NCBI GenBank assembly: GCA_017936005.1
Contig: JAGBGK010000052.1
Span: 1 to 43,938, forward strand
From: Tidjanibacter sp.
GTDB lineage: Bacteria > Bacteroidota > Bacteroidia > Bacteroidales > Rikenellaceae
DNA: 43,938 nucleotides
Direction of reading: 5' to 3'
The notes below the pieces were generated by a model that did not search any database, was not told the origin of the DNA, and saw nothing but the letters and a program-made list of their open reading frames with translations. Within the stretch, counting starts at the first letter, position 1; each line of letters opens with the position of its first letter. Position numbers and translations under genes: made by a program. Below, in pieces: positions 3,941 to 38,115 of the stretch.

Positions 3941-3945
3941 TGGCG

Positions 3946-4029: not shown

Positions 4030-4104
4030 TGACTTTTTTGGATGGAAAGAGAAAAGGTGAATTATAATTTGCACTTTCTACTGACCAAAGACTGACTAAC
4101 CGAT

Positions 4105-16229: not shown

Positions 16230-17438
16230 ATGACTACATTACTCCAATCAACCGTAGGCCAGGACATCATCAACTTCCTCCAATCCTCGGGCATCTATAT
16301 GATGTTTATGGAGGCTGGTGGCTGGAAGTGCTTGGTGATGATTGCACTTGCTTGCTTCCTGCTCTACTTGGCTATCAAGAAACAGTATGAGCCTCTGTTG
16401 CTCTTGCCCATCGCATTCGGTATGCTTCTCACGAACCTTCCCGGTGCAGGTATGTTCCACTCGGAGATTTTCGCCGATGGCCACATCAATTGGGCAGAAC
16501 TCTCCACCGGCCACGCAGGCCTCTTGGACTACCTCTACCTCGGTGTTAAACTCGGTATCTATCCCTGTTTAATCTTTGTGGGCGTGGGTGCAATGACCGA
16601 CTTCGGTCCGCTGATCGCCAACCCCAAGAGTTTCCTTATGGGTGCAGCAGCACAGATTGGTATCTTCCTCACCTTCCTCGGTGCTAACGCTATGGGCTTC
16701 TCGCCCGCCGAGGCAGGCTCGATTGGTATCATCGGTGGTGCTGACGGCCCCACCTCCATCTATCTGACAAGTAAGTTGGCTCCCAACCTCTTGGGTCCCA
16801 TCGCTATTGCGGCTTACTCCTATATGGCTCTCGTGCCCGTGATTCAGCCTCCCATTATGAGGGCTCTCACCACCGAGAAGGAGCGTCAGATTAAGATGAC
16901 TACCTTGCGTCAGGTGTCCAAGACCGAGAAGATTATCTTCCCCATCGTCATCACCATCATCATCGCTCTCATCCTGCCCAGCGCAGCACCTCTGATTGGC
17001 TGCTTGATGCTCGGCAACTTGATGAAAGAGTGTGGCGTTGTTGACCGTTTGGCCAAGACCGTACAGAACGAGTTGATGAACATTGTGGTTATCTTTCTCG
17101 GTATCACCGTTGGTGCAACCGCAACTGCGGAGGCATTCCTCAACTTCAAGACATTGGGTATTTTGGCCCTCGGTATTGTAGCCTTCTCGTGCGGTAGTGC
17201 CGGTGGCGTACTCTTGGCCAAGCTGATGAACGTATTCTTGCCCGAGGGTAAGAAGATTAACCCCCTGATTGGTTCGGCCGGTGTTTCGGCAGTGCCTATG
17301 GCTGCTCGTGTGTCGCAGGCTGAGGGTCTTAAAGCCAACCCCAGCAACTTCTTGTTGATGCACGCAATGGGTCCCAACGTGTCGGGCGTTATTGGTTCGG
17401 CGGTGGCGGCGGGTATATTGCTCTCCTTCCTCGGCTAA
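16230..17438 (+). CDS. mmdB: Na+-translocating methylmalonyl-CoA decarboxylase beta subunit
   Basis: This 402-residue polytopic inner-membrane protein decarboxylates carboxybiotin and exports Na+. It has about ten hydrophobic helices. The conserved [12 protein letters not shown] region holds the Asp (about residue 172) that the family uses for Na+ and proton coupling, and the C-terminal [18 protein letters not shown] is typical of OadB/MmdB. It is the last gene of the operon. Its stop codon overlaps the first bases of repeat element A1, which probably terminates transcription. Confidence 0.95.
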
Positions 17439-17561
17439 AAAACTCATATTGCGGGTGAATTTTGCACCGCACTGCGATAAGCGGGCTCCTCATTTGCGTT
17501 AAGCAAACTGCGGGCCCGCTTTCTTGTTTGGCACAAAATTCCCCTCGCACAATGAGTTTTT
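17437..17561 (+). repeat. Element A, copy 1: 125-nt three-tier stem-loop after mmdB
   Basis: The element starts at the stop codon and folds into nested stems. The outer stem is AAAAACTCA with TGAGTTTTT; next comes TGCG with CGCA and GAATTTTG with CAAAATTC; inside, AAGCGGGC pairs with GCCCGCTT; the innermost is TTTGC-GTTAA-GCAAA. Two more copies lie at 22688 and 33852. The stems differ between copies by changes that keep pairing. The flanking oligo-A and oligo-T would make it a terminator on both strands. The 3' 32 bases are duplicated at 17714-17745. Confidence 0.85.
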
Positions 17562-17805
17562 ACCGCTAATTGAGGTCAGATAGCACCACGGCCAAAATGG
17601 GGGAAGCGTCATTCTGACGCCGCCTTGCATTCATCCCGCTCTATGCACTTTTTACCGCTTTCAGACGTTTGATAGCATTGCGACCAAAATGGGGAAAGCG
17701 TCATTCTGACGCTGGCACAAAATTCACCTCGCACAATGAGTTTTTACCGCTAATAGAGGTCAGATAGCACCACGACCAAAATGGGGAAAGCGTCATTCTG
17801 ACGCT
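17557..17805 (+). repeat. Element B: three 65-bp units ending in GCGTCA-TTC-TGACGC
   Basis: Units at 17557-17621, 17649-17713 and 17741-17805 are each 65 bp. All begin TTTTTACCGCT and end with ACCAAAATGGGG-like sequence plus the hairpin GCGTCATTCTGACGC. Units 1 and 3 are nearly identical; unit 2 differs in the 22 bases after ACCGCT. Before unit 3, the last 32 bases of element A are also repeated, so a segment of about 90 bp was duplicated. Between mmdB and miaB (17439-17878) I see no gene. Confidence 0.85.
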
Positions 17806-17808
17806 GTC

Positions 17809-17839
17809 AAAAAAAGCCACGGGTTTTTCCGTGGCTTTT
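17809..17839. terminator. Terminator of miaB, bidirectional
   Basis: GCCACGG (17816-17822) pairs with CCGTGGC (17829-17835), with seven As before and four Ts after. On the minus strand it lies about 40 bp after the miaB stop and has a long T run. Confidence 0.85.
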
Positions 17840-17878
17840 CGTCAATCGTTGACCTATTATTATATATAATAAGACGAG

Positions 17879-19237
17879 CTACTCCGTCAGCAGTTTGCCA
17901 AAGAGGGTGGCCGATGAGCAGTCCGTGATGGTAACCTTAACGTAGTCGCCTGCGCCAAGTCCTTCGGCTGCATCAAACACCACCATCTTATTCTGCGACG
18001 TGCGTCCGCAGAGTTGAGCCTCACTACGTTTGGAGTGGCCCTCAATGAGCACCTCAAAGGTCTTACCCACATCCTTGCGGTTACTCTCGGCCGAGAGTTC
18101 GTTTTGTAGGTTTATAATCTCGGTGAGTCGTCGTGTTTTCTCCTCCTCGCTCACGTCGTCGGTCATATGTCGTGCGGCGTAGGTGTTGGGCCTCATAGAG
18201 AATTTGAACATAAAGGCACTCGCATAGCCCACCTCCCTCATCAGCGAGAGTGTCTCGGCGTGGTCTTCGAGTGTTTCGGTACAGAAGCCCGCAATAAGGT
18301 CGGTGGTGATGGCGCAGTCGGGCATTGCGGCACGGATGGCGGCGATGCGTCCGAGGTACCATTCACGGGTGTACTTACGGTTCATAATCTGCAACATACG
18401 CGTACTTCCACTCTGTGCGGGCAGGTGTATGGCACGGCAGATATTAGGGTGTGAGGCCATAACCTCAATGAACCTATCGGAGAGGTCTTTGGGGTGGGAG
18501 GTGGCAAACCTCACACGCAGGTCGGGGGCGATGGCGGCCACCATCTCCATAAGTTTGGGAAAGACAACAGGCTCCTCGGAGCACTTCCAGCGGTAGGAGT
18601 TCACGTTTTGGCCCAACAGTGTAACCTCCCTATAACCGGCCTCATAACACTCCCTTGCCTCTCGTAGGATGGTTTCGGGGTCCCTGCTACGCTCGATGCC
18701 ACGAGTGTAGGGCACCACGCAGTAGGAGCACATATTGATACATCCCCTCATAATACTGATGAAGGCACTCACACCATTGCTGTCGAGCCTCACGGGGCGA
18801 ATCTCGCCATAGGTCTCCTCCTGCGACAGGGCAACATTCACACCCTTACCGCCTGCCTTGGCAGCGGCCACAAGTTTGGGCATATCGCGGTAGGAATCGG
18901 GGCCGGCAACGATGTCCACTATTGGCTCCTTTTCGAGCAGTTGCTCTTTGAGCCTCTCGGCCATACAGCCCACAATGCCCACAATGAGCGAGCGTTTGGC
19001 CCTCTTGTAGCGGTGAAACTCTTTGAGTCGGCCCCAGATGCGCTGTTCGGCATTGTCTCTCACAGAGCAGGTGTTCACAAGGATGATGTCGGCCTCCTCA
19101 ATGTTGCGAGTGTATTCGTATCCCTCGCCTTGCATAATGGATACGATGATTTCGGTGTCGCCAACATTCATTTGGCAACCGTAGGTCTCAATGTATAGTT
19201 TGTGTCCGTCACCGGTTGTGGCTCTGCTAATCTTCAT
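17879..19237 (-). CDS. miaB: tRNA-2-methylthio-N6-dimethylallyladenosine synthase
   Basis: This 452-residue radical-SAM methylthiotransferase converts i6A37 to ms2i6A37 in tRNAs reading UNN codons. The N-terminal MTTase domain has three cluster ligands, Cys21 in ETYGCQMNVGD, Cys57 in NTCSVR and Cys91 in GCMAERL. The radical-SAM CxxxCxxC is Cys166, Cys170 and Cys173 in RGCINMCSYCVVPYTRG. A C-terminal TRAM domain (about residues 385-450, GKTFEVLIEGHSKRSE) binds tRNA. The ATG at 19237 is chosen over upstream in-frame ATGs inside the preceding gene. It lies 37 bp downstream of the YitT-family gene on the same strand. Confidence 0.95.
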   Translation of the reverse strand: MKISRATTGDGHKLYIETYGCQMNVGDTEIIVSIMQGEGYEYTRNIEEADIILVNTCSVRDNAEQRIWGRLKEFHRYKRAKRSLIVGIVGCMAERLKEQLLEKEPIVDIVAGPDSYRDMPKLVAAAKAGGKGVNVALSQEETYGEIRPVRLDSNGVSAFISIMRGCINMCSYCVVPYTRGIERSRDPETILREARECYEAGYREVTLLGQNVNSYRWKCSEEPVVFPKLMEMVAAIAPDLRVRFATSHPKDLSDRFIEVMASHPNICRAIHLPAQSGSTRMLQIMNRKYTREWYLGRIAAIRAAMPDCAITTDLIAGFCTETLEDHAETLSLMREVGYASAFMFKFSMRPNTYAARHMTDDVSEEEKTRRLTEIINLQNELSAESNRKDVGKTFEVLIEGHSKRSEAQLCGRTSQNKMVVFDAAEGLGAGDYVKVTITDCSSATLFGKLLTE

Positions 19238-19274
19238 TTGCGTTTGTGCTTTCGTATGTTGGGTTGGATGAAAT

Positions 19275-20222
19275 TTATGCGTTGTTGGTGGTTTGTTCTG
19301 TTTCGGGATCAAACTGCTTGAAGCCGTCACCATAGGTTTCGTGGGCATCCACGATGACCACAAAAGCCTCCTTGTCGATGGCGTGGATGCGGTGTTTCAC
19401 TTGTGCAATCTCCTTGCGGCTCACCACCAAGAATATCATTTCACGCTCTTTGTCGGTGTACATACCGCTGGCGTGTATCCAAGTGCCACCACGTCCCATC
19501 TCGTTGAGGATGAAGTGTTTGATTTCGTCCTTGTGCTCGGAGATGACGAAGAGCAGTTTTTCGTAGCTTGCACCATCGAGTACAAAGTCGAGTGCTTTGG
19601 CACTCACAAAAATTGCGATGAGCGAGTAGAGGGGCAGGGTGTAGTCGGCAAAGACAATCATACCCACCAACACGATGCAGCTCTCTACGCCAAACATCGC
19701 ACTCGAAAACTTCACCCTCAGATACTTGCTCAATATCATCGACACGATGTCTGTGCCGCCCGAGGTGGCTCCGCTACGGATGATGATACCCGTGCCGGCA
19801 CCAATCAGCAGGCCACCAAATATGGCCGCCATCAGCAGGTTGTCCGAGAAGTTGAACATTGTGCTCAGCAGCGATACTCCATCGGCGGGGTTCTCGCCAA
19901 TCCAATCGGTCATATTGTTCATCACAATCGGGGTGAGCAGGGCTGCAAAGATGGTCTTGGCTCCAAACGAGCTGCCGAAAATCAGGAAGCTCGTAATCAT
20001 CAGCGGGATGTCAAACATAAAACCGAAGGTACCGGTCTGTATGGCGGGGAAGATGTGGTGCAACACACGACCAAGACCATACACACCGCCGGGGATAATC
20101 TTATAGGGGTTGGTGAAGAGCACGAAACCTGCCGACATAATGACCACACCGAGCATCACACCAATCCACGAAGCGATGTTTCGGGGGGTGAGCGAAGCTT
20201 TTATTCTTTGTCTGAAATCCAT
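19275..20222 (-). CDS. YitT-family membrane protein (DUF161/DUF2179)
   Basis: This 315-residue protein has about five or six membrane helices in its N-terminal 200 residues (beginning ASWIGVMLGVVIMSAGFVLF), with the YitT repeats NPYKIIPGGVYGLG and IIRSGATSGGTDIVSMIL. A soluble C-terminal DUF2179 domain follows (GGTWIHASGMYTDKEREMIFLVV...KEAFVVIVDA). The biochemical role of the family is not settled. The start at 20222 avoids a repeat-derived N-terminal extension. It sits between DUF4837 and miaB, all on the minus strand with short gaps, so the three are probably co-transcribed from the promoter at 21346-21353. Confidence 0.9.
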   Translation of the reverse strand: MDFRQRIKASLTPRNIASWIGVMLGVVIMSAGFVLFTNPYKIIPGGVYGLGRVLHHIFPAIQTGTFGFMFDIPLMITSFLIFGSSFGAKTIFAALLTPIVMNNMTDWIGENPADGVSLLSTMFNFSDNLLMAAIFGGLLIGAGTGIIIRSGATSGGTDIVSMILSKYLRVKFSSAMFGVESCIVLVGMIVFADYTLPLYSLIAIFVSAKALDFVLDGASYEKLLFVISEHKDEIKHFILNEMGRGGTWIHASGMYTDKEREMIFLVVSRKEIAQVKHRIHAIDKEAFVVIVDAHETYGDGFKQFDPETEQTTNNA

Positions 20223-20289
20223 AATTGTTGAGTTGAGTGTTGAGAATTGTTGTGCGCCAATGGGGCGCAACGTGTTCGTTTAAGGGTTG

Positions 20290-21315
20290 TTACTTTTGTT
20301 CGCTTTGTTCCTCGGATGGGAATTTCACGGAGTATATGAGGTGTTCAAGTCCACGCAAGAGGTCCCTCTGTCCGTGTTTGGGCGAGAAGACGTAGCAGTC
20401 GATACAGATGACCTTGTTGTTCTCCTTGTCGAGCGTACTCCAACTCAACATAGGGCCACCCATAAAGTCGTTTTGCAAATCCCAGAAGCCGCGCATCTCG
20501 GCCCAAAAACGGCCATTGATACGTTTGTAGGTCACCTCCGGACCGTAGATATCAACCGTTTTCATATAGGAGCCGTCCGACGGGCCGGGGATATTCTTCA
20601 CAAAGTTGTTACGTTGGCGCACGAGGTTCTCCAATTCGAAGTCGCTCTTGCCGTTGTAGGGATAGGAGTAGATGGCAATACCCTGTGTGGCCACGGGGTA
20701 CTCAAACGATGTTACCAGCAGACTGTCGCCACTCGTTCCTCGCGAGGTGTAGCCTCGGGGAAGGTCGAGGGTAAAGCCGAACATCTTTTGTATCTTGTCA
20801 ATCATCACGCCCTCCTTGTGCTTGCTGTTGAGCTTGATAGCCCTATCTCGCTCGGCATCCTCAAAGGCTTTTAATACACCCTCTTTATTCTCCGATAGGT
20901 ACTTGACCATAGCCTCGTCGCTGGGCGCATTGACATAGACGATGAGCTGTCCGTCGGCATATTTGTTCTTCACTGCCGACGAACCGACCTGCTGCGAGGG
21001 GTCAACGGTTACGAAGAGCACATTGCGGTGTATCTTGATGAAACCCTCAAAGGCACTGCGCATAACCCTCATAAGGTCCATACGAGGCTCATATTGGTTC
21101 ACATAATCCACCGGCAGGGCGAAGATTTCGCGCAGAGTATCGCCCACAATGCCCTCCCATTGCGGTTTTTCCACCACGGCAATCACCTCATAAGGAGCAC
21201 CTCCTGCGGCCTGTTGGCCCGTGCCGATGGTTGACGAGTTGCATCCTACAAACGAGGCGGCAAACCCGAAGAGGGCCAACACCCCCACGGCTATTTTGAA
21301 AAGACTTTTTTTCAT
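20290..21315 (-). CDS. DUF4837 lipoprotein
   Basis: This 341-residue protein has a lipoprotein signal (FAASFVGC, lipidated Cys about residue 25). The mature part matches DUF4837, a Bacteroidetes-restricted family: PYEVIAVVEKPQWEGIVGDTLREIF, then PRMDLMRV and IHRNVLFVTV, and a second half with YTSRGTSGDSLLVTSFEYP and INGRFWAEMRGFWDL. Function is unknown; lipidation places it in the cell envelope. It has its own -7 box (21346-21353) divergent from that of the polysaccharide deacetylase gene. The gap to the YitT-type gene contains a small hairpin (GCGCC-AATG-GGGCG). Confidence 0.88.
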   Translation of the reverse strand: MKKSLFKIAVGVLALFGFAASFVGCNSSTIGTGQQAAGGAPYEVIAVVEKPQWEGIVGDTLREIFALPVDYVNQYEPRMDLMRVMRSAFEGFIKIHRNVLFVTVDPSQQVGSSAVKNKYADGQLIVYVNAPSDEAMVKYLSENKEGVLKAFEDAERDRAIKLNSKHKEGVMIDKIQKMFGFTLDLPRGYTSRGTSGDSLLVTSFEYPVATQGIAIYSYPYNGKSDFELENLVRQRNNFVKNIPGPSDGSYMKTVDIYGPEVTYKRINGRFWAEMRGFWDLQNDFMGGPMLSWSTLDKENNKVICIDCYVFSPKHGQRDLLRGLEHLIYSVKFPSEEQSEQK

Positions 21316-21345
21316 CCCCTTTCAATTTTTTGTTATCTCTTTCGG

Positions 21346-21353
21346 CAAAGATA
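21346..21353 (-). promoter_or_regulatory. -7 box for the DUF4837-yitT-miaB run
   Basis: The minus strand reads TATCTTTG, 30 bp before the ATG at 21315. It is divergent from the box at 21368-21375, with 14 bp between them. Confidence 0.6.
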
Positions 21354-21367
21354 GCAATTTTTTGTCA

Positions 21368-21375
21368 TACCTTTG
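21368..21375 (+). promoter_or_regulatory. -7 box for the polysaccharide deacetylase gene
   Basis: TACCTTTG matches TAnnTTTG and lies 23 bp before the ATG at 21399. Confidence 0.6.
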
Positions 21376-21398
21376 CATCCAACTTCAATATATTTAAT

Positions 21399-22019
21399 AT
21401 GTATTTTCGCTGGCCTAAAATAATGTGTAAACACACCCCCACGATGCTGTGGAGGGTGAAAAGCAAGGATACTGTCTATTTGACATTTGACGACGGGCCA
21501 ACCCCGAAAATCACCGAGTATATCCTCGACACGTTGGACAAGTATGGTGCCAAAGCCACCTTCTTTTGCCTCGGTAACAATGCCGAGATGTACCCCGAAC
21601 TGATTGAGGAGATAGAACGACGAGGCCACGCCATCGGCAACCACTCCTACAACCACACCCGTGGGTGGCTTGTCAGTAGCGACGAGTATATGGCAAGTGC
21701 CTACAAGGCAGGCCAATTCCTCCCACATACACGACTCTTTCGCCCTCCCTACGGACGCATTGCGCTGCGAGAGGTGCGCTGTATGCGATCCCAGGGCTGG
21801 CGTGTGGTGATGTGGAACAATATCTCCGAGGATTACGACCACAAGGTATCACCCGCACGATGCGCCCAAAAGGTTATCCGACACCTACACCCGGGCAATA
21901 TCATCGTCTTCCACGACTCGGTTAAAGCCTCCAAAAATATGATGTACGCACTCCCTCGTGTGCTCGAAGCAATACAGAAGAAAGGACTTAAAACAGATAT
22001 TCTTACGGTCAATTTGTAG
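21399..22019 (+). CDS. Polysaccharide deacetylase family protein (NodB domain)
   Basis: This 206-residue protein is essentially one NodB homology domain of carbohydrate esterase family 4. The metal-dependent active site is readable: TFDDGPTP (catalytic and metal Asp), the metal-binding HxxxH in GNHSYNH, RPPYG, and the late VFHDS. Members remove N- or O-acetyl groups from peptidoglycan, chitin or other glycans; the substrate here cannot be told. No obvious signal peptide is present, unusual for an enzyme acting on cell-wall glycans. The ATG at 21399 fits the -7 box at 21368. The stop lies 20 bp before the efp -7 box. Confidence 0.88.
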   Translation: MYFRWPKIMCKHTPTMLWRVKSKDTVYLTFDDGPTPKITEYILDTLDKYGAKATFFCLGNNAEMYPELIEEIERRGHAIGNHSYNHTRGWLVSSDEYMASAYKAGQFLPHTRLFRPPYGRIALREVRCMRSQGWRVVMWNNISEDYDHKVSPARCAQKVIRHLHPGNIIVFHDSVKASKNMMYALPRVLEAIQKKGLKTDILTVNL

Positions 22020-22038
22020 GAGTTTAGACATTTTTCAC

Positions 22039-22046
22039 TACTTTTG
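22039..22046 (+). promoter_or_regulatory. -33/-7 promoter for efp
   Basis: TACTTTTG (TAnnTTTG), with a TTTG at 22013-22016, 22 bp upstream, as the -33. The -33 overlaps the end of the deacetylase gene. Confidence 0.65.
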
Positions 22047-22119
22047 TGGGTTGAACTGCCACAAAAGGCACAAAGACAGATATTTCAGATTCTAACAAAA
22101 TACAAAAAAACACAAAACT

Positions 22120-22689
22120 ATGGCAACAGCATCAGACATCAAAATCGGTATGTGCATCGATATGGACAACAAGACTTTCCTCGTTGTCGACTTCCAGCAC
22201 GTTAAGCCCGGCAAAGGCCCCGCTTTCATCCGTACCAAACTCAAAAATCTCGAAAATGGTCGCGTACTCGATAAGACCTACTCGTCGGTAGGTGAGAAAA
22301 TCGAGCCCGTACGTGTAGAGCGTCGTCCCTACCAGTACACCTACGAGGATGACCTCGGTGTGCACCTTATGCACATGGAGACCTTCGAGGAGATCACCAT
22401 TCCCAGGGACCTCATTGAGAACTCCGACCTTATGGTTGACGGTCAGATTTTGGAGGTTATGTTCCACACCGAGAAGGAGTTGGCACTCACCGCCGAGTTG
22501 CCTCCCATCATTGATATGGAGGTTACCTACACCGAGCCCGGTGTTCGTGGTGACACTGCTTCGACCAACTCGCTCAAACCTGCAACCGTAAACACCGGTG
22601 CAACCGTTAAGGTACCTTTGTTTATCAACACCGGCGACAAGATTCGTGTTGATACTCGCACTCGTGAGTATTACGAGCGCATCAAGTAA
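22120..22689 (+). CDS. efp: Elongation factor P
   Basis: This 189-residue factor relieves ribosomes stalled at polyproline stretches. It has three beta-barrel domains: an N-terminal KOW-like domain with the tip loop VKPGKGPAF (Lys32 at the position modified in many bacteria), a middle OB domain (about residues 67-125) and a C-terminal OB domain ending in the conserved GDKIRVDTRTREYYERIK. The length matches the family. It has its own promoter, and its stop codon overlaps the first bases of repeat element A2. Confidence 0.97.
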   Translation: MATASDIKIGMCIDMDNKTFLVVDFQHVKPGKGPAFIRTKLKNLENGRVLDKTYSSVGEKIEPVRVERRPYQYTYEDDLGVHLMHMETFEEITIPRDLIENSDLMVDGQILEVMFHTEKELALTAELPPIIDMEVTYTEPGVRGDTASTNSLKPATVNTGATVKVPLFINTGDKIRVDTRTREYYERIK

Positions 22690-22812
22690 AAAACGCAGAT
22701 TGCGGGTGAATTTTGCACCGCACTTCGATAGGCGAGTTCCTCATTTGCGACAGCAAACTGCGGACTCGCCTTCTCGTTTGGCACAAAATTCCCTCCGCAC
22801 TTTGCGTTTTTT
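22688..22812 (+). repeat. Element A, copy 2: 125-nt three-tier stem-loop after efp
   Basis: Outer stem AAAAAACGCA with TGCGTTTTTT; then TGCGG with CCGCA and GAATTTTG with CAAAATTC; inner AGGCGAGT with ACTCGCCT; apical TTTGC-GACA-GCAAA. Compared with copy 1, the inner stem GCGGGC/GCCCGC became GCGAGT/ACTCGC and the outer ACTCA/TGAGT became ACGCA/TGCGT, all pair-preserving. Confidence 0.87.
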
Positions 22813-22992
22813 TAACGTCGACCGTCAACCGTCTGCATACCCCTCAGTCGCTTTGCGACAGCTCCCCTACCTTAGGGGAGCAGCTTTTTCAATTCTCAAT
22901 TCTCAATTCTCAACTCTCAATTCTCAATTCCTTTTCTGCTCTTCCCGCCTTTTCTGCCCTTTCTGCTCTTTCTGCCCTGGCATAGTATCCGT
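22813..22992. repeat. Simple-repeat intergenic block after efp
   Basis: This segment has no gene. In order it holds CGTCGAC/CGTCAAC heptamers (22816-22836), a segment with two inverted repeats (GTCGC-TTT-GCGAC around 22853 and GCTCCCC...GGGGAGC at 22861-22880), six TCAATTC heptamers (22889-22930), and a pyrimidine-rich run of loose CTTTTCTGC 9-mers (22931-22978). It precedes the stop of the convergent DUF4435 gene. Confidence 0.75.
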
Positions 22993-23973
22993 TTATCGGT
23001 TGGTTTGCAGGAAGTCCTCTATGTCTTTTTGGAGCTTTTTATAGAGGAAACACTCCTTGTAGTTCTCGTTGAAAAGGAGTGCATCACGCACGTTACAGAG
23101 CGAGTTGTTGTAGTTGCTCAACTCATTTTGCAGCACAAGTCCCGTGCGGTCGGAGTTGTAGATGCGCGTGGTCGATAGGTTTTTCAGGCGGTGGCACACG
23201 GCCGACAGAACCACGCTCACCACGTTGTCCATCAACGTGTGGCCGTGCATAAACAGATATGTCTGTTCGGGCGTTACGCCTCGCATATGCAGGAGGCTCT
23301 CAAAATCGCCCAGGCGTGTGGCAATGTCGGGGTGCTCATATTCGAGTATCTGCAAGCGACGTTCCACTTGTTTACGCAACCAAACAATAGTATTGGCTCC
23401 GTTACGCTCTGTGTCGAGGTAGCCAAGACGTACGGTATTCTTGAAATTTTGGAGCGGGAAAATGTTGGGTGTAGATATCTGGGCCGAGTAGGCATACCAC
23501 ACAAAAGCGGGGTATATAGCCTTTGAGTACTCGGCAAAGAAATCCTCAAAATCGAAGATGTGGGTGTCGTTCTTGGTGGCCTTCACACAGAGGTTGTGCA
23601 GCGATGGAGCATAGCAGAGGTAGTTCTCTGTGGAGTAGACATAGGTGTGGAACAGGTAGGGCGAGGCGTTGATGATGCGGGCGTCGTGTGTCTGGTCGGC
23701 GAAGAGGTAGTCGAAGTCGCTGTCCATACACATAATCAGCCCAGAGTTGCACATATCCGCCTGACTAAGCAGGGTTTTCTTTCCCTTTGCGAGGTCCTCT
23801 CGTTGTGGCACACTCACCTCAAACCTCACGTAGTCGTCCTCGTAGGGGTCCAGTATGCCACGCCAGAAGGCGATATCCTCATATCCTTCCACGAGGACAC
23901 GAATGTGTCGGCACCCTTCGGGTAGAGGGGTGGTGTGGGGTGATTGGGATATGTTGCTCTGTCGTTTTGCCAT
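22993..23973 (-). CDS. DUF4435 domain protein (TOPRIM-like)
   Basis: This 326-residue cytoplasmic protein resembles the DUF4435 family. The N-terminal half has a TOPRIM-like pattern: an acidic IRVLVEGYEDIAFW (Glu at the first strand end) and a DxD in CMDSDFDYLF. The phrase TYVYSTENYLCY follows, also typical. The helical C-terminal half is not conserved to my knowledge. TOPRIM-type domains act in nucleic-acid cleavage or phosphotransfer, and DUF4435 proteins often accompany AAA/ABC ATPases in defence or repair loci; none is adjacent here. It has its own -7 box (23984-23991) divergent from yciH. Confidence 0.7.
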   Translation of the reverse strand: MAKRQSNISQSPHTTPLPEGCRHIRVLVEGYEDIAFWRGILDPYEDDYVRFEVSVPQREDLAKGKKTLLSQADMCNSGLIMCMDSDFDYLFADQTHDARIINASPYLFHTYVYSTENYLCYAPSLHNLCVKATKNDTHIFDFEDFFAEYSKAIYPAFVWYAYSAQISTPNIFPLQNFKNTVRLGYLDTERNGANTIVWLRKQVERRLQILEYEHPDIATRLGDFESLLHMRGVTPEQTYLFMHGHTLMDNVVSVVLSAVCHRLKNLSTTRIYNSDRTGLVLQNELSNYNNSLCNVRDALLFNENYKECFLYKKLQKDIEDFLQTNR

Positions 23974-23983
23974 AGTGGGTGTA

Positions 23984-23991
23984 CAAAAATA
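23984..23991 (-). promoter_or_regulatory. -7 box for the DUF4435 gene
   Basis: The minus strand reads TATTTTTG, only 10 bp before the ATG at 23973. That implies a very short leader or a leaderless mRNA. Confidence 0.5.
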
Positions 23992-24003
23992 AGAAAAAAT
24001 CCA

Positions 24004-24011
24004 TATCTTTG
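24004..24011 (+). promoter_or_regulatory. -7 box for yciH
   Basis: TATCTTTG matches TAnnTTTG and lies 33 bp before the yciH ATG, divergent from the DUF4435 box. Confidence 0.6.
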
Positions 24012-24044
24012 TGATATTAGTGGGACTATTTATTTCTCCTTGAT

Positions 24045-24392: not shown

Positions 24393-24394
24393 GA

Positions 24395-24457
24395 CGTCGA
24401 CCGTCGACCGTCAACCGACGACCGTCAACCGTCAACCGACGACCGTCAACCGACAAT
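24395..24457. repeat. Heptamer repeat, CGTCAAC type, 9 units
   Basis: Nine 7-bp units (CGTCGAC twice, CGTCAAC, CGACGAC, CGTCAAC twice, CGACGAC, CGTCAAC, CGACAAT) begin two bases after the yciH stop. The unit is the reverse complement of the GTTGACG unit at 3210. Confidence 0.88.
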
Positions 24458-24480
24458 TCTAAATGTTCCTCCTAAATCAT

Positions 24481-24500
24481 GGGTATCTTTTTTAATACCT
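24481..24500. repeat. Solitary copy of the GGGTATC hairpin core
   Basis: GGGTATCTTTTTTAATACCT differs by one base from the palindromic cores of the array at 37531-38060. It lies 10 bp before the ATG at 24511, where it could affect translation initiation or terminate yciH transcription. Confidence 0.75.
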
Positions 24501-24510
24501 GAGGGCAGAA

Positions 24511-27453: not shown

Positions 27454-27464
27454 ACAAAAATCAC

Positions 27465-27472
27465 TACCTTTG
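27465..27472 (+). promoter_or_regulatory. -7 box for the PBP1A gene
   Basis: TACCTTTG matches TAnnTTTG and lies 32 bp before the ATG at 27505, immediately after the stop of the outer-membrane protein gene. Confidence 0.6.
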
Positions 27473-27504
27473 TGGGTTGTAGATGAAGAAAACTGCGTAA
27501 TGCT

Positions 27505-29934
27505 ATGAAAAGATACAAGGATTTGAGCAAGGCAACGAGGGTTACCATCTGGTTTTGGACCATTGTGTTGGTGCCTTCCATCGCCTTCATCACACTTCTG
27601 CTGTTGACCAACTCAGGTACATTTGGCACACTGCCCTCGTTTGAGGAGTTGGAGAACCCCAAGAGTAACCTTGCCACCGAAATCTATTCGGAGGACGGAG
27701 TGTTGCTGGGCTCCTACTATGTGCAGAACCGTTCGTATGTGGACTACGAGGACCTCGCCCCCTCGTTGGTGGCAGCACTCATTGCCACCGAGGATGCACG
27801 TTTTGAGAGCCACTCCGGTATCGACTTCATTTCGCTTGCCCGTGTGGCGGTGCGCACCATTGCCTTGGGCGATAGGGGACAGGGCGGTGGCTCGACCATC
27901 ACACAGCAGCTGGCCAAAAACCTCTTCCCGAGGGACACAACCCACTACTCCTCCAAACTTGCTCGTACGGGTAAACTCGTCATCGCCAAGTTTAAGGAGT
28001 GGATTACGGCCGTGAAACTCGAACACAACTACACCAAAGACGAGATTGTGGCGATGTATTTCAACACCGTCTTCTTCGGCTCCAATGCCTACGGTATCAA
28101 GTCGGCAGCCAAGACCTTCTTCGATAAGGAACCCTCGGAACTCAACGTGCAGGAGGCTGCAGTGTTGGTTGGTGTGGTCAATGCGCCCACACGTTACAGC
28201 CCCGTGCGTAACCCCAAGAACTCGCTGGCAAGGCGCAACACGGTTATGAGCCGTATGGAGGCCGCAGGGTATATTACGGCCGAACAACTCGACTCACTCA
28301 AAGCACTTCCCATAGAGCTCCGATTCTCACAATCGAGCCACAACGAGGGCCTTGCGACCTACTTCCGAGAGATGATACGTCTGACGATGACCTCGCCAAA
28401 GCCCACTCGTAATATGTTCTACACCAAGTATGACTACGAAAAGGAGGTCGAAAGGTGGGAGAAAAACCCCCTATATGGCTGGTGTCTGAAAAACCAAAAG
28501 GCCGATGGTAGCAACTATAACATCTACCGTGATGGCCTGAAAATCTACACCACCCTCAATAGCACAATGCAACGCTATGCGGAGGAGGCTGTGCAGAAAC
28601 AACTCTCCACACAGATTCAGCCTGCAATGGAGAAGCAGTATAGCGAAACCAATGTGCTGTTTACCGACTTGGAGCAGGAGGAAGTGGATAAGATTATCAA
28701 ACGTGCGGTGCGCTATTCGGACCGCTATCGTGATATGTCCAACGCAGGCTATTCGCACGCAGCCATCGACGAGGCGTTCCGCACCAAAGTGCGCACTCGC
28801 ATCTTCACCTACAAGGGCGAGGTTGACACCCTCATCACTCCCCTCGACTCCATCCTCCACCACAAGCGCATTATGCGTGCTTCGCTGGTGGCTATGGACC
28901 CACACAATGGTTATGTGAAGGCCTATGTGGGTGGTCCCAACTTCCGATATTTCAAGTATGATATGGCCAAACAGGGCAAGCGTCAGGTGGGCTCCACCAT
29001 CAAGCCCTTCATCTACACCTTCGCCTTTGACCACCTCGGCTACAACCCCTGTACAATGGTACCCAACCTGCCCGTAACCATCGAAACATACACGGGCGAG
29101 GCGTGGACTCCCAAAGAGGCCGGCTCGGTTGTCTATGATGGCGAGCTTTATCCTTTGAAGTGGGGTATGGCACGTAGTCGCAACAACTATTCGGCTTGGA
29201 TTATGAAGCAGGCTAACCAGCCCGAAGCGGTGGCAGACTTCATCCACAATATGGGTATTATGAGCTACATCGACCCTGTGAATGCCATCTGTCTGGGTAC
29301 GCCCGATGTGTCGCTCTTTGAGATGGTGGGTGCCTATTCCACCTTCGCAAATAGGGGCGTCTATACCGAGCCAATCTTTGTTACACGCATCGAGGACCGA
29401 CACGGCAACGTGCTGGCCGAGTTTAATACCACCAGCACGGTGGCCATCAGCGAACACACGGCCTACACAATGGTCGATATGCTTCGCACTGTTGTACAAC
29501 GCGGTACGGGCGTAAGGCTCGGCTGGGCCTATGGTATGAGCGATGTTGAGGTAGGTGGTAAGACCGGTACATCACAGGAAAATAGGGACGCGTGGTTTAT
29601 GTGCGTTGCTCCCAACCTTGTTGGTGGTGTGTGGGTCGGTGGTGAGGACCAAAGCGTACACCTCGCATCAAAGGGCGAAGGCTCGGTGGTGGCTCTGCCT
29701 GTCTATGGCGAATTTCTCAGGAGTGTTATGGAGGACGGCTCACTTGGGGTAACCAAGACCGACACCTTCTTCCGTCCTATGGGTGCCAAAGAGTATAATT
29801 GTTGGGATGGTTCGGTAACTATTGAGGATGTTGAGGCTGCCGAAAATAGCGAAGCCGCCGAGGGCGAGCAGGCTGTTGTGGTGGAGAAGAAACCAAACGA
29901 TGTGGTCTTTGAGGACGACGAGGAGTTTTTCTAA
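27505..29934 (+). CDS. Penicillin-binding protein 1A, bifunctional
   Basis: This 809-residue class A PBP polymerises and cross-links peptidoglycan. An N-terminal membrane anchor (about residues 13-36) is followed by a GT51 glycosyltransferase domain with the catalytic Glu96 in IATEDARFESHSGID and GGSTITQQLAKNL. The transpeptidase domain has SxxK at GSTIKP (Ser497), SxN at SRNNYS and KTG at GKTGTSQENRDAWF. The C-terminal tail is acidic (ending FEDDEEFF) and may be disordered. A terminator at 29941-29978 follows. Confidence 0.95.
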   Translation: MKRYKDLSKATRVTIWFWTIVLVPSIAFITLLLLTNSGTFGTLPSFEELENPKSNLATEIYSEDGVLLGSYYVQNRSYVDYEDLAPSLVAALIATEDARFESHSGIDFISLARVAVRTIALGDRGQGGGSTITQQLAKNLFPRDTTHYSSKLARTGKLVIAKFKEWITAVKLEHNYTKDEIVAMYFNTVFFGSNAYGIKSAAKTFFDKEPSELNVQEAAVLVGVVNAPTRYSPVRNPKNSLARRNTVMSRMEAAGYITAEQLDSLKALPIELRFSQSSHNEGLATYFREMIRLTMTSPKPTRNMFYTKYDYEKEVERWEKNPLYGWCLKNQKADGSNYNIYRDGLKIYTTLNSTMQRYAEEAVQKQLSTQIQPAMEKQYSETNVLFTDLEQEEVDKIIKRAVRYSDRYRDMSNAGYSHAAIDEAFRTKVRTRIFTYKGEVDTLITPLDSILHHKRIMRASLVAMDPHNGYVKAYVGGPNFRYFKYDMAKQGKRQVGSTIKPFIYTFAFDHLGYNPCTMVPNLPVTIETYTGEAWTPKEAGSVVYDGELYPLKWGMARSRNNYSAWIMKQANQPEAVADFIHNMGIMSYIDPVNAICLGTPDVSLFEMVGAYSTFANRGVYTEPIFVTRIEDRHGNVLAEFNTTSTVAISEHTAYTMVDMLRTVVQRGTGVRLGWAYGMSDVEVGGKTGTSQENRDAWFMCVAPNLVGGVWVGGEDQSVHLASKGEGSVVALPVYGEFLRSVMEDGSLGVTKTDTFFRPMGAKEYNCWDGSVTIEDVEAAENSEAAEGEQAVVVEKKPNDVVFEDDEEFF

Positions 29935-29940
29935 AAGCGA

Positions 29941-29978
29941 CCTCACCGTCATACACAACAAAACGGTAAGGATTTTTT
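29941..29978 (+). terminator. Terminator of the PBP1A gene
   Basis: CCTcACCGT (29941-29949) pairs with ACGGTaAGG (29963-29971), followed by six Ts. The stem has one internal mismatch and a 13-nt loop. Confidence 0.7.
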
Positions 29979-29981
29979 AAT

Positions 29982-30025
29982 AATAAATAGGGATATAGCA
30001 ACTAATAAATAAGGATATAGCAACT
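29982..30025 (+). repeat. 22-bp tandem duplication abutting the asd start
   Basis: Two 22-bp copies of AATAAATAgGGATATAGCAACT (one difference, G to A) run directly into the asd ATG at 30026. The duplication makes two equivalent translation-initiation contexts but only one ATG. Confidence 0.85.
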
Positions 30026-31027
30026 ATGAATGTAGCAATTGTTGGTGCAAGCGGAGCAGTAGGACAGGAGTTCCTGCGCATACTTGCCGAGAGGAATTTC
30101 CCCGTTGACAACCTCTATCTCTTCGGTAGCGAGAGGAGCGCAGGCAGGGAGTATGAGTTCAAGGGAAAGAAATACACCGTGCAACTTCTCGCACACAACG
30201 ACGACTTCAAGGGCATTGACGTTGCTTTTGTGTCGGCCGGTGGCGGTACCTCCAAGGAGTTTGAGAAGACCATCACCAAGCACGGAGCGATTATGATTGA
30301 CAATTCGAGCGCATTCCGTATGGACAAGGATGTGCCTCTGGTCGTTCCCGAAGTAAATCCCGAGGATGCACACAACACACCTCGTAACGTCATTGCCAAC
30401 CCCAACTGTTCCACTATTCAGATGGTGGTGGCTTTGGCTGCGTTGGAGAAATTGGCACACATCAAACGAGTACACGTGGCCACCTATCAGGCAGCCAGCG
30501 GTGCGGGTGCGATGGGTATCGCCGAGTTGGAGCAGCAGTACACCGAGATTGTTGAGGGCAAGGAGCCTACGGTTAATAAGTTCGCCTACCAACTTGCAGG
30601 CAATGTCATCCCCCATATCGACGTGTTTACCGATAACGACTACACCAAAGAGGAACTCAAAATGCACTTCGAGACGCAGAAGATTATGCACTCCGACGTT
30701 GCTGTGAGCGCAACGTGTGTGCGTGTACCCGTGGCGAGGGCACACTCGGAGGCCATCTGGGTGGAGTTTGAGAGGCCCGTGAGTGTTGAGGAGGCCAAGG
30801 CTGCACTTGCTGCTGGCGAAGGCCTCGTGGTTGAGGATGTGCCTGCCGAGAAGAAATACCCTATGCCACTCTTTGTGGCCGAGACTACGCCTGTATTTGT
30901 GGGCCGTATCAGGGAGGATATTGCCAATCCCTGTGGTTTGACCTTCTGGTGCGTGGCCGACCAGATTCGCAAGGGAGCAGCACTCAACGCTGTGCAGATT
31001 GCCGAGAAACTCTTTGGCACAAGGTAG
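30026..31027 (+). CDS. asd: Aspartate-semialdehyde dehydrogenase
   Basis: This 333-residue enzyme reduces aspartyl phosphate to aspartate semialdehyde with NADPH, feeding lysine/diaminopimelate, threonine and methionine synthesis. Signatures: the nucleotide-binding [14 protein letters not shown] at the N-terminus, DNSSAFRMD, the catalytic Cys128 in [22 protein letters not shown], and the base His in [13 protein letters not shown]. It is a stand-alone unit between pbp1a and dnaK. Supplying diaminopimelate precursor fits loosely with the neighbouring peptidoglycan synthase, though no operon links them. Confidence 0.96.
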
Positions 31028-31180
31028 TGCAACCACCGACCGCTGACCGTCAGCAGTCATCCGTTGACTGCCACCGTCATCCATTGACCACCGGCCGTCA
31101 GCAGTCATCCACCGACCACCGGCTGTCAGCAGTCATCCACCGACCACCGGCCGTCAACCGTCATCCATAGGCCGTCGGAT
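31028..31180. repeat. Degenerate heptamer repeat block after asd
   Basis: About 150 bp of degenerate 7-bp periodicity. Units such as ACCGACC, ACCGGCC, GTCAGCA and GTCATCC recur in the same order with a 28-bp higher-order period (GTCAGCA GTCATCC ACCGACC ACCGGCT, repeated). I see no gene in it. Confidence 0.75.
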
Positions 31181-31189
31181 ATCAGATTA

Positions 31190-31232
31190 AAAACTCTCGG
31201 GTATGAAAAACAATACCCGAGAGTTTGTTTTT
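31190..31232 (+). terminator. Terminator of asd
   Basis: AAACTCTCGGGTAT (31191-31204) pairs with ATACCCGAGAGTTT (31213-31226), a 14-bp perfect stem with loop GAAAAACA, followed by GTTTTTG. The stem contains the GGGTAT/ATACCC core also seen in the array at 37.5 kb. Confidence 0.82.
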
Positions 31233-31253
31233 GTCGCCAACGTGGTTGGTAGG

Positions 31254-31286
31254 ACAAAAAAACGGCACCTTCGCGAAGGTGCCGTT
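31254..31286 (-). terminator. Terminator of the small HTH gene
   Basis: AACGGCACCTTCGCGAAGGTGCCGTT is a perfect 26-bp palindrome. On the minus strand a run of Ts (plus-strand A run at 31255-31262) follows it, about 30 bp after the stop at 31318. Confidence 0.85.
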
Positions 31287-31317
31287 TCTCTTTGTGCTAT
31301 CCGCACAAGGCTGTTGA

Positions 31318-31566
31318 CTACTCCAGCTCTTTAAGGATACGCATTGCAGCCTGATAGATAGCGTCGTCCTCGAAACTTACGATACCGCCATCGGGACCCT
31401 CCTCCACAACGATACCTGCGGTGGTGGTGGCACCCTCAAAGTGGCGACCGCCAAAAAAGTTCCTTACTTCGTCTACATTGATGCCAAGCTCATCGGCGAT
31501 GCGCTGGCTGCTGCCACTGGGCAATTTGTCCTTGATGCGGCGCAATTCGTTAAAGGTGATTACCAT
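31318..31566 (-). CDS. Small putative DNA-binding protein, 82 residues
   Basis: The N-terminal half (FNELRRIKDKLPSGSSQRIADELGINVDEVRNFFGG) looks like a helix-turn-helix, with the recognition helix around residues 27-37. The C-terminal half is acidic and ends in a helix (DDAIYQAAMRILKELE). Similar short proteins occur in Bacteroidetes and are usually called DNA-binding protein without known targets. It is divergent from dnaK, 389 bp away. An imperfect -7 box (minus strand TACCTTTA, 31618-31625) lies about 50 bp upstream. Confidence 0.72.
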   Translation of the reverse strand: MVITFNELRRIKDKLPSGSSQRIADELGINVDEVRNFFGGRHFEGATTTAGIVVEEGPDGGIVSFEDDAIYQAAMRILKELE

Positions 31567-31955
31567 AGTGATATTAGTGTTTAGATTTGTGTTTTAGTTA
31601 TGCCATATTTAGCACTATAAAGGTAGTGCCATTTTGTGGAATAAAAAAATTTTATCGCACAAATTTTATTTTTTCCTTGTTTTTTATCCATTTCTCTTCT
31701 TCAACGAAACGTGTTGTTGGCGATTGTAAGGAGTGGCAAGCAGTTGGTGTGGCGGCTGAAAAATGACAAATTCGGACTTTTTGGCACGTTTTGTCATCAT
31801 TTGTCAGTCAGTGTGGCGTTGTTTGTCAGTTCGGATGGCGAAAATACCGCTTGGCACAGAGATTGAACATAGAGTGATTGAAACAGGAAAGAATGTTTCC
31901 GAGAAATAATACGATTACTAAACAAAGTTAAACAACATAAAAAAGAATTAAAGTT
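31567..31955. promoter_or_regulatory. dnaK upstream region with repeated TTTGTCA sites
   Basis: This 389-bp interval holds no gene. It contains TGACAAA at 31764-31770 and three direct TTTGTCA copies at 31790-31796, 31800-31806 and 31822-31828, all within 90 bp upstream of the sigma54-like element. Two of these sites are followed by TTCGGA (31771 and 31830); a similar TGACAATTCGGA lies upstream of hsp20 at 3854-3865. These look like activator or repressor sites. Confidence 0.5.
31852..31867 (+). promoter_or_regulatory. Sigma54-like -24/-12 promoter for dnaK
   Basis: TGGCAC-AGAGA-TTGAA, compared with TGGCAC-N5-TTGCA: a perfect -24 half and one mismatch in the -12 half, with exact spacing. It lies 89 bp before the dnaK ATG. 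No clear TAnnTTTG box is nearer the gene. Inference from motif only. Confidence 0.5.
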
Positions 31956-33851
31956 ATGGCAAAGATTATCGGTATCGACCTTGGTACAACCAACAGTTGT
32001 GTAGCAGTAATGGAGGGCAACGAGCCCGTGGTTATTCCCAACAGCGAGGGACACCGCACAACCCCTTCGATTGTGGCTTTCACCGAGGGTGGTGAGCGCA
32101 AGGTGGGCGACCCCGCAAAGCGTCAGGCTATCACCAACCCTAAGAACACAATCTTCTCGATTAAGAGGTTTATGGGTGAGAAAATGGAGCAGGTGCAGAA
32201 GGACGTAGCACGTGTTCCCTACAACGTAGTTCGTGGTGGCAACGGTGTGCCTATGGTTGAGGTTGGCGACAGGAAATATACTCCTCAGGAGATTTCGGCT
32301 ATCATTCTCCAAAAGATGAAAAAGACCGCCGAGGACTACCTCGGAACCACCGTTAGCGAGGCAGTTATCACCGTGCCCGCCTATTTTAGCGACTCGCAGC
32401 GTCAGGCCACCAAAGAGGCCGGCGAGATTGCAGGTCTGAAAGTTCGCCGTATCATCAACGAGCCCACCGCAGCAGCTCTCGCCTACGGTCTGGACAAGGC
32501 CGGCAAGGATATGAAAATTGCTGTGTATGACCTCGGTGGCGGTACCTTCGATATCTCGATTTTGGAGCTTGGCGATGGCGTGTTTGAGGTTAAGTCGACC
32601 AATGGTGATACCCACCTCGGTGGTGATGACTTCGACCACGTGATTATCGACTGGATGGCTGCCGAGTTCCAGAGCAAACACGGTATCGACCTCCGCAAAG
32701 ATGCTATGGCTATGCAGCGTCTGAAAGAGGCCGCAGAGAAGGCTAAAATTGAGCTTTCGAGCAGCACCTCGACAGAGATTAACCTCCCCTATATTATGCC
32801 CGTAGATGGTATCCCCCAACACCTTGTAATGACCCTCACCAGGGCTAAATTCGAGCAGTTGGCCGACAACCTTATCCGTGCAACCATCGAGCCCTGCCGT
32901 AAGGCACTCAGCGATGCAGGTTTCAGCGCAAACCAGATTGACGAGGTTATCCTCGTGGGTGGTTCTACCCGTATTCCTGCAATCCAGAAGGTGGTTGAGG
33001 AGTTCTTCGGTAAGGCTCCCTCGAAGGGCGTTAACCCCGACGAGGTGGTGGCTATCGGTGCTGCAATTCAGGGTGGCGTGTTGACCGGTGAGGTTAAGGA
33101 CGTACTCCTCTTGGATGTTACTCCTCTGTCGCTCGGTATCGAGACTCTCGGTGGTGTGTTCACCCGACTGATTGATGCCAATACCACAATCCCCACTCGC
33201 AAGAGCCAGGTGTTCTCCACCGCACAGGACAACCAGCCTTCGGTAGAGATCCACGTATTGCAGGGCGAGCGTCAGATGGCAAGGGACAATAAGACCATCG
33301 GTCGTTTCCACCTCGACGGCATCCCTGCAGCACCCCGTGGTGTACCCCAGATTGAAGTTTCGTTCGACATCGATGCCAACGGTATTCTCAATGTGTCGGC
33401 CAAAGATAAAGGCACCGGTAAGGAGCAGAGCATTCGCATCGAGGCTTCGAGCGGTCTGACCGAGGCAGAGATCCAGCGTATGCGTGACGAGGCAAAGGCT
33501 AACGAGGCAAAAGATAAAGAGGAGCGCGAGAGGGTTGATAAAATCAACGGTGCCGACTCGATGATTTTCTCCACCGAGAAACAGCTCAAAGAGTATGGCG
33601 ACAAACTCCCCGCCGATAAGAAATCGGCCATCGAGAGCGCACTCGCCGAGTTGAAGAGCGCACACTCCTCGCAGGACCTCGCAGGTATTGATGCTGCAAG
33701 CGAGAAACTCAACGCTGCTTGGCAGGCTGCTTCGCAGGACATCTACGCACAGCAGGGCGCACAGCAGGCACAGCCCAATGGCGGTCAGCAGGCTCAATCC
33801 AACGGTGGTGCTCAGCAGGCTGAGGATGTAGAATTTGAAGAAGTAAAATAA
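31956..33851 (+). CDS. dnaK: Chaperone DnaK (Hsp70)
   Basis: This 631-residue ATP-dependent chaperone has the Hsp70 signatures [14 protein letters not shown] at the N-terminus, [16 protein letters not shown] in the middle of the ATPase domain and [14 protein letters not shown] near its end. The substrate-binding domain starts after the linker [17 protein letters not shown]; the lid is followed by a Gln/Ala/Gly-rich tail (repeats of AQPNGGQQ) ending VEFEEVK. grpE and dnaJ are not adjacent. The stop codon is immediately followed by element A3. Confidence 0.98.
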
Positions 33852-33975
33852 AAAAAACGCAGATTGCGGGCGAATTTTGCACCGCACTTCGATAAGCGGC
33901 TCCTCATTTGCGAAAGCAAACTGCGGGGCCGCTTTCTCGTTTGGCACAAAATTCCCTCCGCACTTTGCGTTTTTT
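33852..33975 (+). repeat. Element A, copy 3: three-tier stem-loop after dnaK
   Basis: Outer AAAAAACGCA with TGCGTTTTTT; TGCGG with CCGCA and GAATTTTG with CAAAATTC; inner AAGCGGCTCC with GGGGCCGCTT (one G-U); apical TTTGC-GAAA-GCAAA, whose loop is a GNRA tetraloop. It begins directly after the dnaK stop. Confidence 0.87.
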
Positions 33976-34113
<138 letters not shown>

Positions 34114-38060: not shown

Positions 38061-38115
38061 GTGAGGTTGGAGAGTAATTTTCAGGTTTCCATTTTCAACT
38101 TTCAAAATAAATCTC

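Follow-up and report, generated by a model that had tools for sequence, protein, structure and literature searches.

A hairpin repeat docked at stop codons in Tidjanibacter and its probable distant kinship to ERIC repeats

ERIC repeats are in routine use in strain typing (ERIC-PCR), and the BOX repeats of pneumococci are short, modular, hairpin-forming intergenic repeats, composed of modules A-B-C with a variable number of internal modules. The present work concerns a hairpin element of about 125 bp that was noticed in a stretch of 43,938 nucleotides from Tidjanibacter sp. (contig JAGBGK010000052.1, assembly GCA_017936005.1; this whole stretch is referred to as the window). In the passages of PMC2229807 drawn on here, ERIC and repeats of its kind are counted among the non-autonomous miniature inverted-repeat transposable elements (MITEs) with TA termini and target-site duplication; ERIC is described as destabilising the upstream mRNA in Yersinia, depending on its orientation, and the way in which such repeats move is said to have no experimental support. 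ERIC/RU-1 is placed in enterobacteria and a related repeat in Vibrio, and Bacteroidota are not mentioned in the corresponding passages of PMC2229807 and PMC2759123. The E. coli consensus of ERIC, as given in Table 1a of PMC2759123, is 127 nt long and has the order GCGTT, TCA-CTTAC-TTAT-GTAAG-CT.C, GCCTT.

The current work shows that the Tidjanibacter element is a real, structured, mobile and non-autonomous DNA hairpin. The best explanation of the whole, which we hold to be rather probable, is a short non-autonomous MITE-like hairpin of the superfamily that contains ERIC/IRU, docked in sense behind stop codons. Its striking points are the near-absolute rule that ties it in sense to stop codons and the Watson-Crick-only covariation of its arms.

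Copies, fold and mobility of the element

Three copies of 125 nt had been reported in the window by a preliminary description made from the sequence alone, and all three were confirmed:

17437..17561 (covariance-model match end at 17561 or 17562), + strand: element copy 1 (class 1); its left edge forms the TAA stop of a 402-aa frame (mmdB); ends TAAAAAACTCA...TGAGTTTTTA
22688..22812, + strand: element copy 2 (class 1), located at the efp stop codon
33852..33975, + strand: element copy 3 (class 1), located at the dnaK stop codon

The gene names mmdB, efp and dnaK, which do not come from a family search, are consistent with the translations as read. In the genome to which the window belongs (G000; 1.97 Mb in 80 contigs, 88.8% complete), copy 1 gave 47 BLAST matches. 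Stretches fetched around most of these yielded 48 placements, 40 of which were aligned (alignment A1), the other eight being chimeric, truncated or very divergent, and a covariance model (R1) was built from A1. At E<=0.01, R1 returned 90 rows from this genome, consisting of 61 distinct places, three of them weak or chimeric, and 29 mirror-strand re-finds of the same palindromes; the search that had been proposed for further copies has thus led from three places to 61. In contigs 7, 13, 29, 50, 57 and 76, copies are found no more than a few hundred bases from a contig end, so the assembly was probably broken by the repeat and the copy number may be an underestimate.

The single nested fold predicted for the window copies was borne out, with z-scores of -7.85, -8.20 and -7.71 for copies 1 to 3 against dinucleotide shuffles, none of 200 shuffles being as good. 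The models of the element are 125-126 long and most copies measure 123-128 nt, a few cut or chimeric ones being shorter; no gene lies inside these roughly 125 bp. The tip of the hairpin is TCCTCA-stem-CTGCGG or a close variant and carries a U-C mismatch and a bulged C. Throughout A1, TCCTCA and CTGCGG hardly vary or do not vary at all, even between classes with wholly different arms, in agreement with the earlier claim of conserved unpaired segments. A second motif appears in the class 1 copies of the window as the variant GCACC/GGCACA and in class 3 of the same genome as GCGTTA/GCCTTG. No Rfam family reached the gathering score at the three window elements or at the elements of 18 loci from relatives, where two matches lie outside the elements, and the best of seven matches in an E-value-mode scan of one copy had an E of 0.25 and 14 bits, against a cut-off of 39; no curated Rfam family fits.

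Among 17 relatives of the same genus, nine contain R1 matches and eight contain none (counts include mirror matches). At the efp, dnaK and mmdB stop codons of the carriers there is either an element or a hairpin related to it, frequently belonging to a different class, or else a short terminator of the plain type. The mmdB gene is followed by class 1 here and in two relatives (G013 and G017) and by class 3 in another (G010), and dnaK by class 1 here and by plain terminators in G010, G013, G016, G017 and G030. The gene at window positions 27505-29934 has an element at its stop codon in G010 and none in the own genome or in G005. Such differences between orthologous sites, at which the element is present, absent or of another subtype, indicate a non-autonomous mobile hairpin; of the interpretations offered at the outset, dispersed and mobile was right. 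Near-identical whole units (up to 98.4% identity) with sharp edges also stand at unrelated genes. After dnaK in G010 (L312:4080-4300), a plain terminator is followed by what is left of an element, its two arms joined with no tip between them.

Placement at stop codons and the nature of the arms

Placement in the own genome was scored for 41 of the 48 placements, five chimeras and the second units of two tandem pairs being excluded. A same-strand frame of at least 80 codons ends from -30 to +25 nt of the element's first base at 40 of the 41, compared with 1 of the 32 placements in which the mirrored antisense control could be scored; at 120 codons, the counts are 37 of 41 in sense and 0 of 30 in antisense. 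The expectation of many copies at gene 3' ends is thus borne out. The element does not, however, simply follow the stop codon, as the first account might suggest: its own first A's often complete a TAA stop, and in some other copies the frame reads on into the element for 10-23 nt before it stops. Ten further upstream proteins were mixed and mostly housekeeping, with Pfam matches in nine (sigma-70 regions, L25, LpxA-like hexapeptide, outer-membrane efflux, DUF4270, homoserine dehydrogenase, PGI, class IV aminotransferase and RNase Y).

Similar placement is observed across taxa. Of 123 pattern matches, 84 loci remained after duplicates were removed and 400 nt were required on both sides; 40 of these non-redundant loci have a sense stop that precedes the tip centre by 54-74 nt, against five with the mirrored antisense control (Fisher p 6e-10). 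Two other genomes were read in sense only, with no antisense control: a frame ends 58-98 nt ahead of the tip centre at 12 of 20 loci in G063 and at 13 of 20 in G061, and several of their remaining loci are chimeric or cut by contig ends. For 30 gammaproteobacterial loci and frames of 60 codons, a stop at -74 to -54 was found 14 times in sense and seven times in antisense, which is a weak test.

The covariation noticed among the three window copies is real. Two-sided, pair-keeping changes occur at 29 of 42 pairs in A1. Across phyla, the covariation score is 0.538, compared with 0.148 after shuffling and at most 0.160 when slid; 90.3% of the cells are paired, and 490 cells bear two-sided changes against a shuffled mean of 146.5. 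In a wider alignment, A2 (76 of 89 listed references and four rows from the own genome), the 18 variable pairs comprise 1209 Watson-Crick, 26 G-U, 55 A-C and 147 other combinations, where column composition alone would give 618 Watson-Crick, 160 G-U and 183 A-C. In a further alignment, A4 (29 of 30 gammaproteobacterial loci, L337 being left out, with L346 and 12 others), the pairs are 727 Watson-Crick, 16 G-U, 26 A-C and 69 other, with 78 G-U and 89 A-C expected. The arms therefore tolerate G-U less than other mismatches in A2 and A4, unlike what is expected of structured RNA. Terminator-like hairpins with one non-Watson-Crick pair at the same loci, used as a control, have 65 G-U, 28 A-C and 22 other pairs (Fisher p 9e-7 for the G-U/A-C contrast with the arms, relatedness ignored). 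Because G-U is rarer than A-C in the arms, the reverse of terminators in the same DNA, these sequence counts suggest that the arms are maintained as DNA palindromes and not as RNA helices, possibly because folded or cruciform DNA is recognised or because one arm is corrected from the other. The own genome speaks against this, G-U (100) exceeding A-C (69) within A1; four columns hold 83 of the 100 G-U pairs.

These data also bear on a different explanation, possible but rather unlikely in our view, by which the element is a cis-acting RNA of the 3' untranslated region (UTR), such as a terminator, mRNA stabiliser or protein-binding hairpin, that is kept by selection at the RNA level and dispersed only secondarily. 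Strict sense orientation at stop codons is what it would lead one to expect, and the common tip with its mismatch and bulge, the fold z of about -8 and the plain terminators at the same place in several element-free relatives would suit it as well. So would the ends of the element in this genus, an A-run and a T-run in 35 of the 41 copies of the own genome; the T-run is missing, however, in some classes (L038, L040) and, by inspection, in most printed gammaproteobacterial copies. Scarcity of G-U in the arms, which is not shared by terminators of the same DNA, absence of the element from whole related genomes and polymorphism between orthologues all speak against RNA-level selection. So do terminator-like hairpins that persist downstream of the element, as in the window:

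17562..17804, + strand: tandem array 3' of copy 1, in which a unit X alternates with right halves of the element (17621-17653 and 17713-17745)
17809..17839, + strand: ordinary terminator-like hairpin AAAAAAAGCCACGGG...CCGTGGCTTTT, downstream of copy 1 and the array; putative older terminator, judged from its sequence
33976..34006, + strand: X'-like segment, directly adjoining copy 3 on its 3' side
34007..34038, + strand: ordinary terminator-like hairpin TCGGGTTTGG...CCGAACCCGTCTTTT, downstream of copy 3; putative older dnaK terminator

With these hairpins persisting 3' of copies 1 and 3, it is as if the element had been placed between stop codon and terminator. The purely RNA-level readings considered earlier (stabiliser, small RNA or protein-binding RNA) are weakened, given that the arms tolerate G-U less than A-C. 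Arms kept as DNA and a strict sense orientation nevertheless conflict in spirit. Either the transcribed strand is read at insertion, or a separate RNA-level effect removes antisense copies.

Spread over bacteria and kinship to ERIC

An exact scan for the tip, with one genome per species, gave at least 110 stretches. According to record titles, among which some labels of metagenome-assembled genomes (MAGs) are doubtful, the tip is present in Alistipes, Tidjanibacter, MAGs of other Rikenellaceae and of Bacteroidaceae, Flavobacteriia, Cryomorpha and Chryseobacterium, and also in Zetaproteobacteria, Gallionellaceae, Alteromonadaceae, Pseudoalteromonas, Kangiella and Marinobacterium. In many taxa the flanks contain the second motif, with GCGTT as its left part and GCCTT as its right part. 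In 33 genomes chosen beforehand as holding a match, a looser tip pattern had 1-81 matches per genome, and the reversed pattern, as a control, had none in any genome but one (4 against 76). With two further models, R2 (phylum-wide) and R3 (42 rows, none of them ERIC), matches at E<=1e-4 were found in 32 of 198 Bacteroidota genomes, the own genome included, and in 43 of 143 gammaproteobacterial genomes; the gammaproteobacterial tip is mostly GCTCA/CT(G or C)CGC.

Mobile replicons gave few matches. A plasmid of Citrobacter freundii contains a member between phnD and phnC (L348:2498-2547) with the tip CCTCACGTAC..GTACGCTCCGG, which scores 39.2 bits with R3 and is distinct from ERIC. Among plasmid records, one Halomonas matched one query and four records another, and two other queries had no match; two element queries found nothing in phage records. 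Core-pattern matches on three viral contigs were rejected, their flanks being unlike the element. One gammaproteobacterial copy found no match in E. coli DNA. Many loci of G063 and G061 (L261-L300) have another short palindrome (GAGGCTGCTAAAAAATACTTTTTAGTCAGCCTC or GGAGATGACTAATTTGTTTTTAGTCATCTCC) after the element, and at several loci one arm is replaced by other repeats, with identical junctions. Literature searches with the core sequence gave nothing relevant among the matches listed, and searches by topic gave ERIC and MITE papers, with none on the Bacteroidota element among the matches listed. As far as these searches go, the element is without a name in Bacteroidota, and it is of a known kind.

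Kinship to ERIC was first suggested by the gammaproteobacterial copies and the annotated Citrobacter match. Five distinct E. coli loci with an ERIC centre were used for comparison: cusC-cusF, ybhI-ybhJ, fbaA-pgk, a place beside the rtcB/prfH remnant, and narK. R3 finds all five at the exact place and strand, with 24.4, 19.1, 18.6, 18.3 and 15.4 bits (E 3.6e-5 to 0.022). Apart from the phnC-phnD copy of Citrobacter, a closer member, the best other match of R3 in 16.7 kb has 8.5 bits. An expression for the order of motifs matches the ERIC consensus and all five E. coli loci, misses the Citrobacter copy and has no match in 12 Mb of Markov sequence; it was composed after ERIC was known and is a description, not a test. 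ERIC is oriented in sense at three of the five loci, where the stop precedes the tip centre by 65-70 nt, and in antisense at the other two.

Several results count against this kinship. R2, run unfiltered, gives two ERIC loci 9.8 and 11.8 bits, which is noise level, and does not list the other three; a sequence-only profile has no ERIC among the best 25 of its 42 matches, all 25 being shuffles. The five ERIC copies are closely alike and amount to about one test. In A2, moreover, the tip is constant by construction, the loci having been chosen by the tip pattern, and the finds of R2 and R3 lean likewise. The success of R3 together with the failure of R2 and of the profile suggests a distant superfamily member and not an ERIC. 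The best reading of these sequence comparisons is thus that the element would represent a distant, new bacteroidotal branch of the MITE-like superfamily that contains ERIC. The earlier statement that no named family matches did not hold, since the build is that of ERIC/IRU and R3, though not R2 or the profile, recovers ERIC.

Surroundings, mobilisation and known systems

In the array behind copy 1, unit X consists of two short hairpins flanking CAAAAT, the second being GCGTCATTCTGACGC. Tandem Repeats Finder reports a period of 92 bp in 3.1 copies at 17529-17814, where the right half of copy 1 is repeated. Similar arrays, in which a two-hairpin X and an element right half (R) follow each other in tandem, exist at L009, L026, L031 and L035, and unit X is often the first sequence after the T-run of the element at other loci as well. 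Pieces of the 5' arm (about 10-30 nt) precede a full element at L013, L016, L018, L019, L021, L028, L042 and L043, which looks like the overwriting of an older element from a point close to its left edge. These stray pieces, the repeated right halves (window 17621-17745) and chimeric arms at L020, L026, L031 and L035 imply recombination or slippage among copies as well. The whole might even be accounted for, without transposition, by pre-existing terminator hairpins that underwent tandem slippage and gene conversion, and in-place subtype switching would agree with it. This we regard as highly improbable, in view of the near-identical, sharp-edged units at unrelated genes, the element that G010 has at a gene lacking it here, and the up to 81 tip-pattern matches in one genome.

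Other repeats of the window are a tandem array at 37597-38061 with units of 50 and 120 bp and TCACGGGTATCTTTTTTGATACCCGTG palindromes, and heptanucleotide tandem repeats at 3217-3264, 22889-22930, 24395-24456 and 34054-34084 (GTTGACG, TCAATTC, CGTCAAC, ATTTTCC). Repeats of the heptanucleotide type also follow elements and terminators elsewhere in the genus. A TPP riboswitch (RF00059, 65.9 bits) lies at 3941-4041, ahead of an apparent thiamine gene cluster.

If the element is the MITE-like hairpin proposed here, an enzyme supplied in trans would recognise the folded DNA by its tip, TCCTCA/CTGCGG, and by GCGTT/GCCTT. The insertion of a copy would take place in the transcribed DNA that separates the stop codon from the terminator, with TA-like sites as its probable targets; the TA of a TAA or TAG stop codon would be suitable. 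By analogy with ERIC, the inserted hairpin would then form the first structure that the transcript has in its 3' UTR, and it would probably alter mRNA decay or 3'-end formation in an orientation-dependent manner; the A-run and T-run ends of this genus would also permit it to act as a terminator.

Some observations do not agree with such a life style. Of the 35 copies with A-run/T-run ends, 21 have a T before and 20 an A after the element, so that TA stands at both ends in only 14, and random insertion at TA would not explain the strict sense orientation. Outer arms vary and the tip is conserved, which is the opposite of the usual MITE with its conserved terminal repeats. Intergenic DNA turns over too fast for alignments of orthologues to show a clean target-site duplication or an empty-site junction. 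Neither of two candidate enzymes follows the element through the 20 genomes of the genus: the Y1 transposase domain PF01797 is found in one, a genome without the element, and the reverse transcriptase domain RVT_1 (PF00078) in three (G005, G013 and G030), not in the own genome or the other carriers. Mobilisation by RAYT/HUH enzymes was rejected on the first count and mobilisation by a reverse transcriptase on the second, although elements are present in each of the three genomes with RVT_1. An element of the RAYT-type REP/REPIN class, moved by a Y1 transposase, is extremely improbable. Such elements are likewise numerous small palindromic intergenic repeats with a mismatch and bulge in the hairpin, but PF01797 occurs in none of the 10 genus genomes with R1 matches (some of them incomplete), compared with 5 of 14 control genomes; moreover, no GTAG-type end was seen by eye, and the length of about 125 bp goes with an ERIC build.

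Two further explanations have been considered. In one, which is very unlikely, the copies would be attC-like sites, hairpins of folded single strands that are read by a tyrosine recombinase and that, like those of integron cassettes, have stayed behind at the 3' ends of genes. Placement at the stop codon in sense, tandem units at a spacing of about 125 bp (L015, L023 and L126) and a similar length would agree with this, as would structure conserved over sequence, but the conserved part is the tip and not the outer R boxes, and copies in the own genome are mostly single and at core genes. By inspection and without a formal motif count, no RYYYAAC/GTTRRRY end boxes were seen in the window copies or in most taxa; AAC/GTT-like ends are present in some Rikenellaceae copies, with AAA/TTT or unrelated ends in other taxa. 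The other, quite unlikely but somewhat less so, envisages a bacteria-wide hairpin installed strand-specifically at message ends, of which ERIC would be one enterobacterial branch. Messages whose 3' ends had been trimmed as far as the terminating ribosome might receive a copy of it, which would then pass into the gene by retro-insertion like that of short interspersed nuclear elements (SINEs); or a recombinase might place it, reading whichever strand transcription exposes. Docking at stop codons would then be a target rule and not a product of selection.

An ERIC build common to Bacteroidota and Proteobacteria makes the question of how such repeats move a testable one, and the nine carriers and eight non-carriers of one genus provide a comparison for finding the enzyme. 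Since the element stands at core genes (a sigma-70-type factor, L25, LpxA-like, PGI, RNase Y, dnaK and efp), the 3' ends of numerous transcripts may be altered by it together.

Intrinsic terminators resemble the element in their position behind the gene and in the A-run/T-run ends of this genus; the element is much longer, has a conserved internal motif, lacks the T-run in many relatives and avoids G-U. REP/REPIN repeats with RAYT are also small, palindromic, mobile and intergenic, and differ in their Y1 transposase, which was not found in carriers of this genus. The attC sites of integrons are likewise hairpins at the stop codon in sense, more conserved in structure than in sequence, whereas the element shows no conserved end R boxes, does not stand in cassette arrays and has a conserved, not a variable, tip. 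BOX repeats, compared by description only, are short modular intergenic hairpins too, and their A-B-C modules form no X-R array. The nearest likeness is to ERIC/IRU/RU-1, which is also an imperfect intergenic palindrome of about 125 bp in many copies with the same internal order of parts. ERIC has TA termini, as the element does in part, and it too starts a few nt from the stop codon in sense at three of the five E. coli loci. The two differ in their outer arms, which are unrelated in sequence, and in the tip, AGTCA/CTCCT in ERIC and TCCTCA/CTGCGG in the element; docking at the stop codon is nearly absolute in the element (40 of 41), and its right halves recur in X-R arrays.

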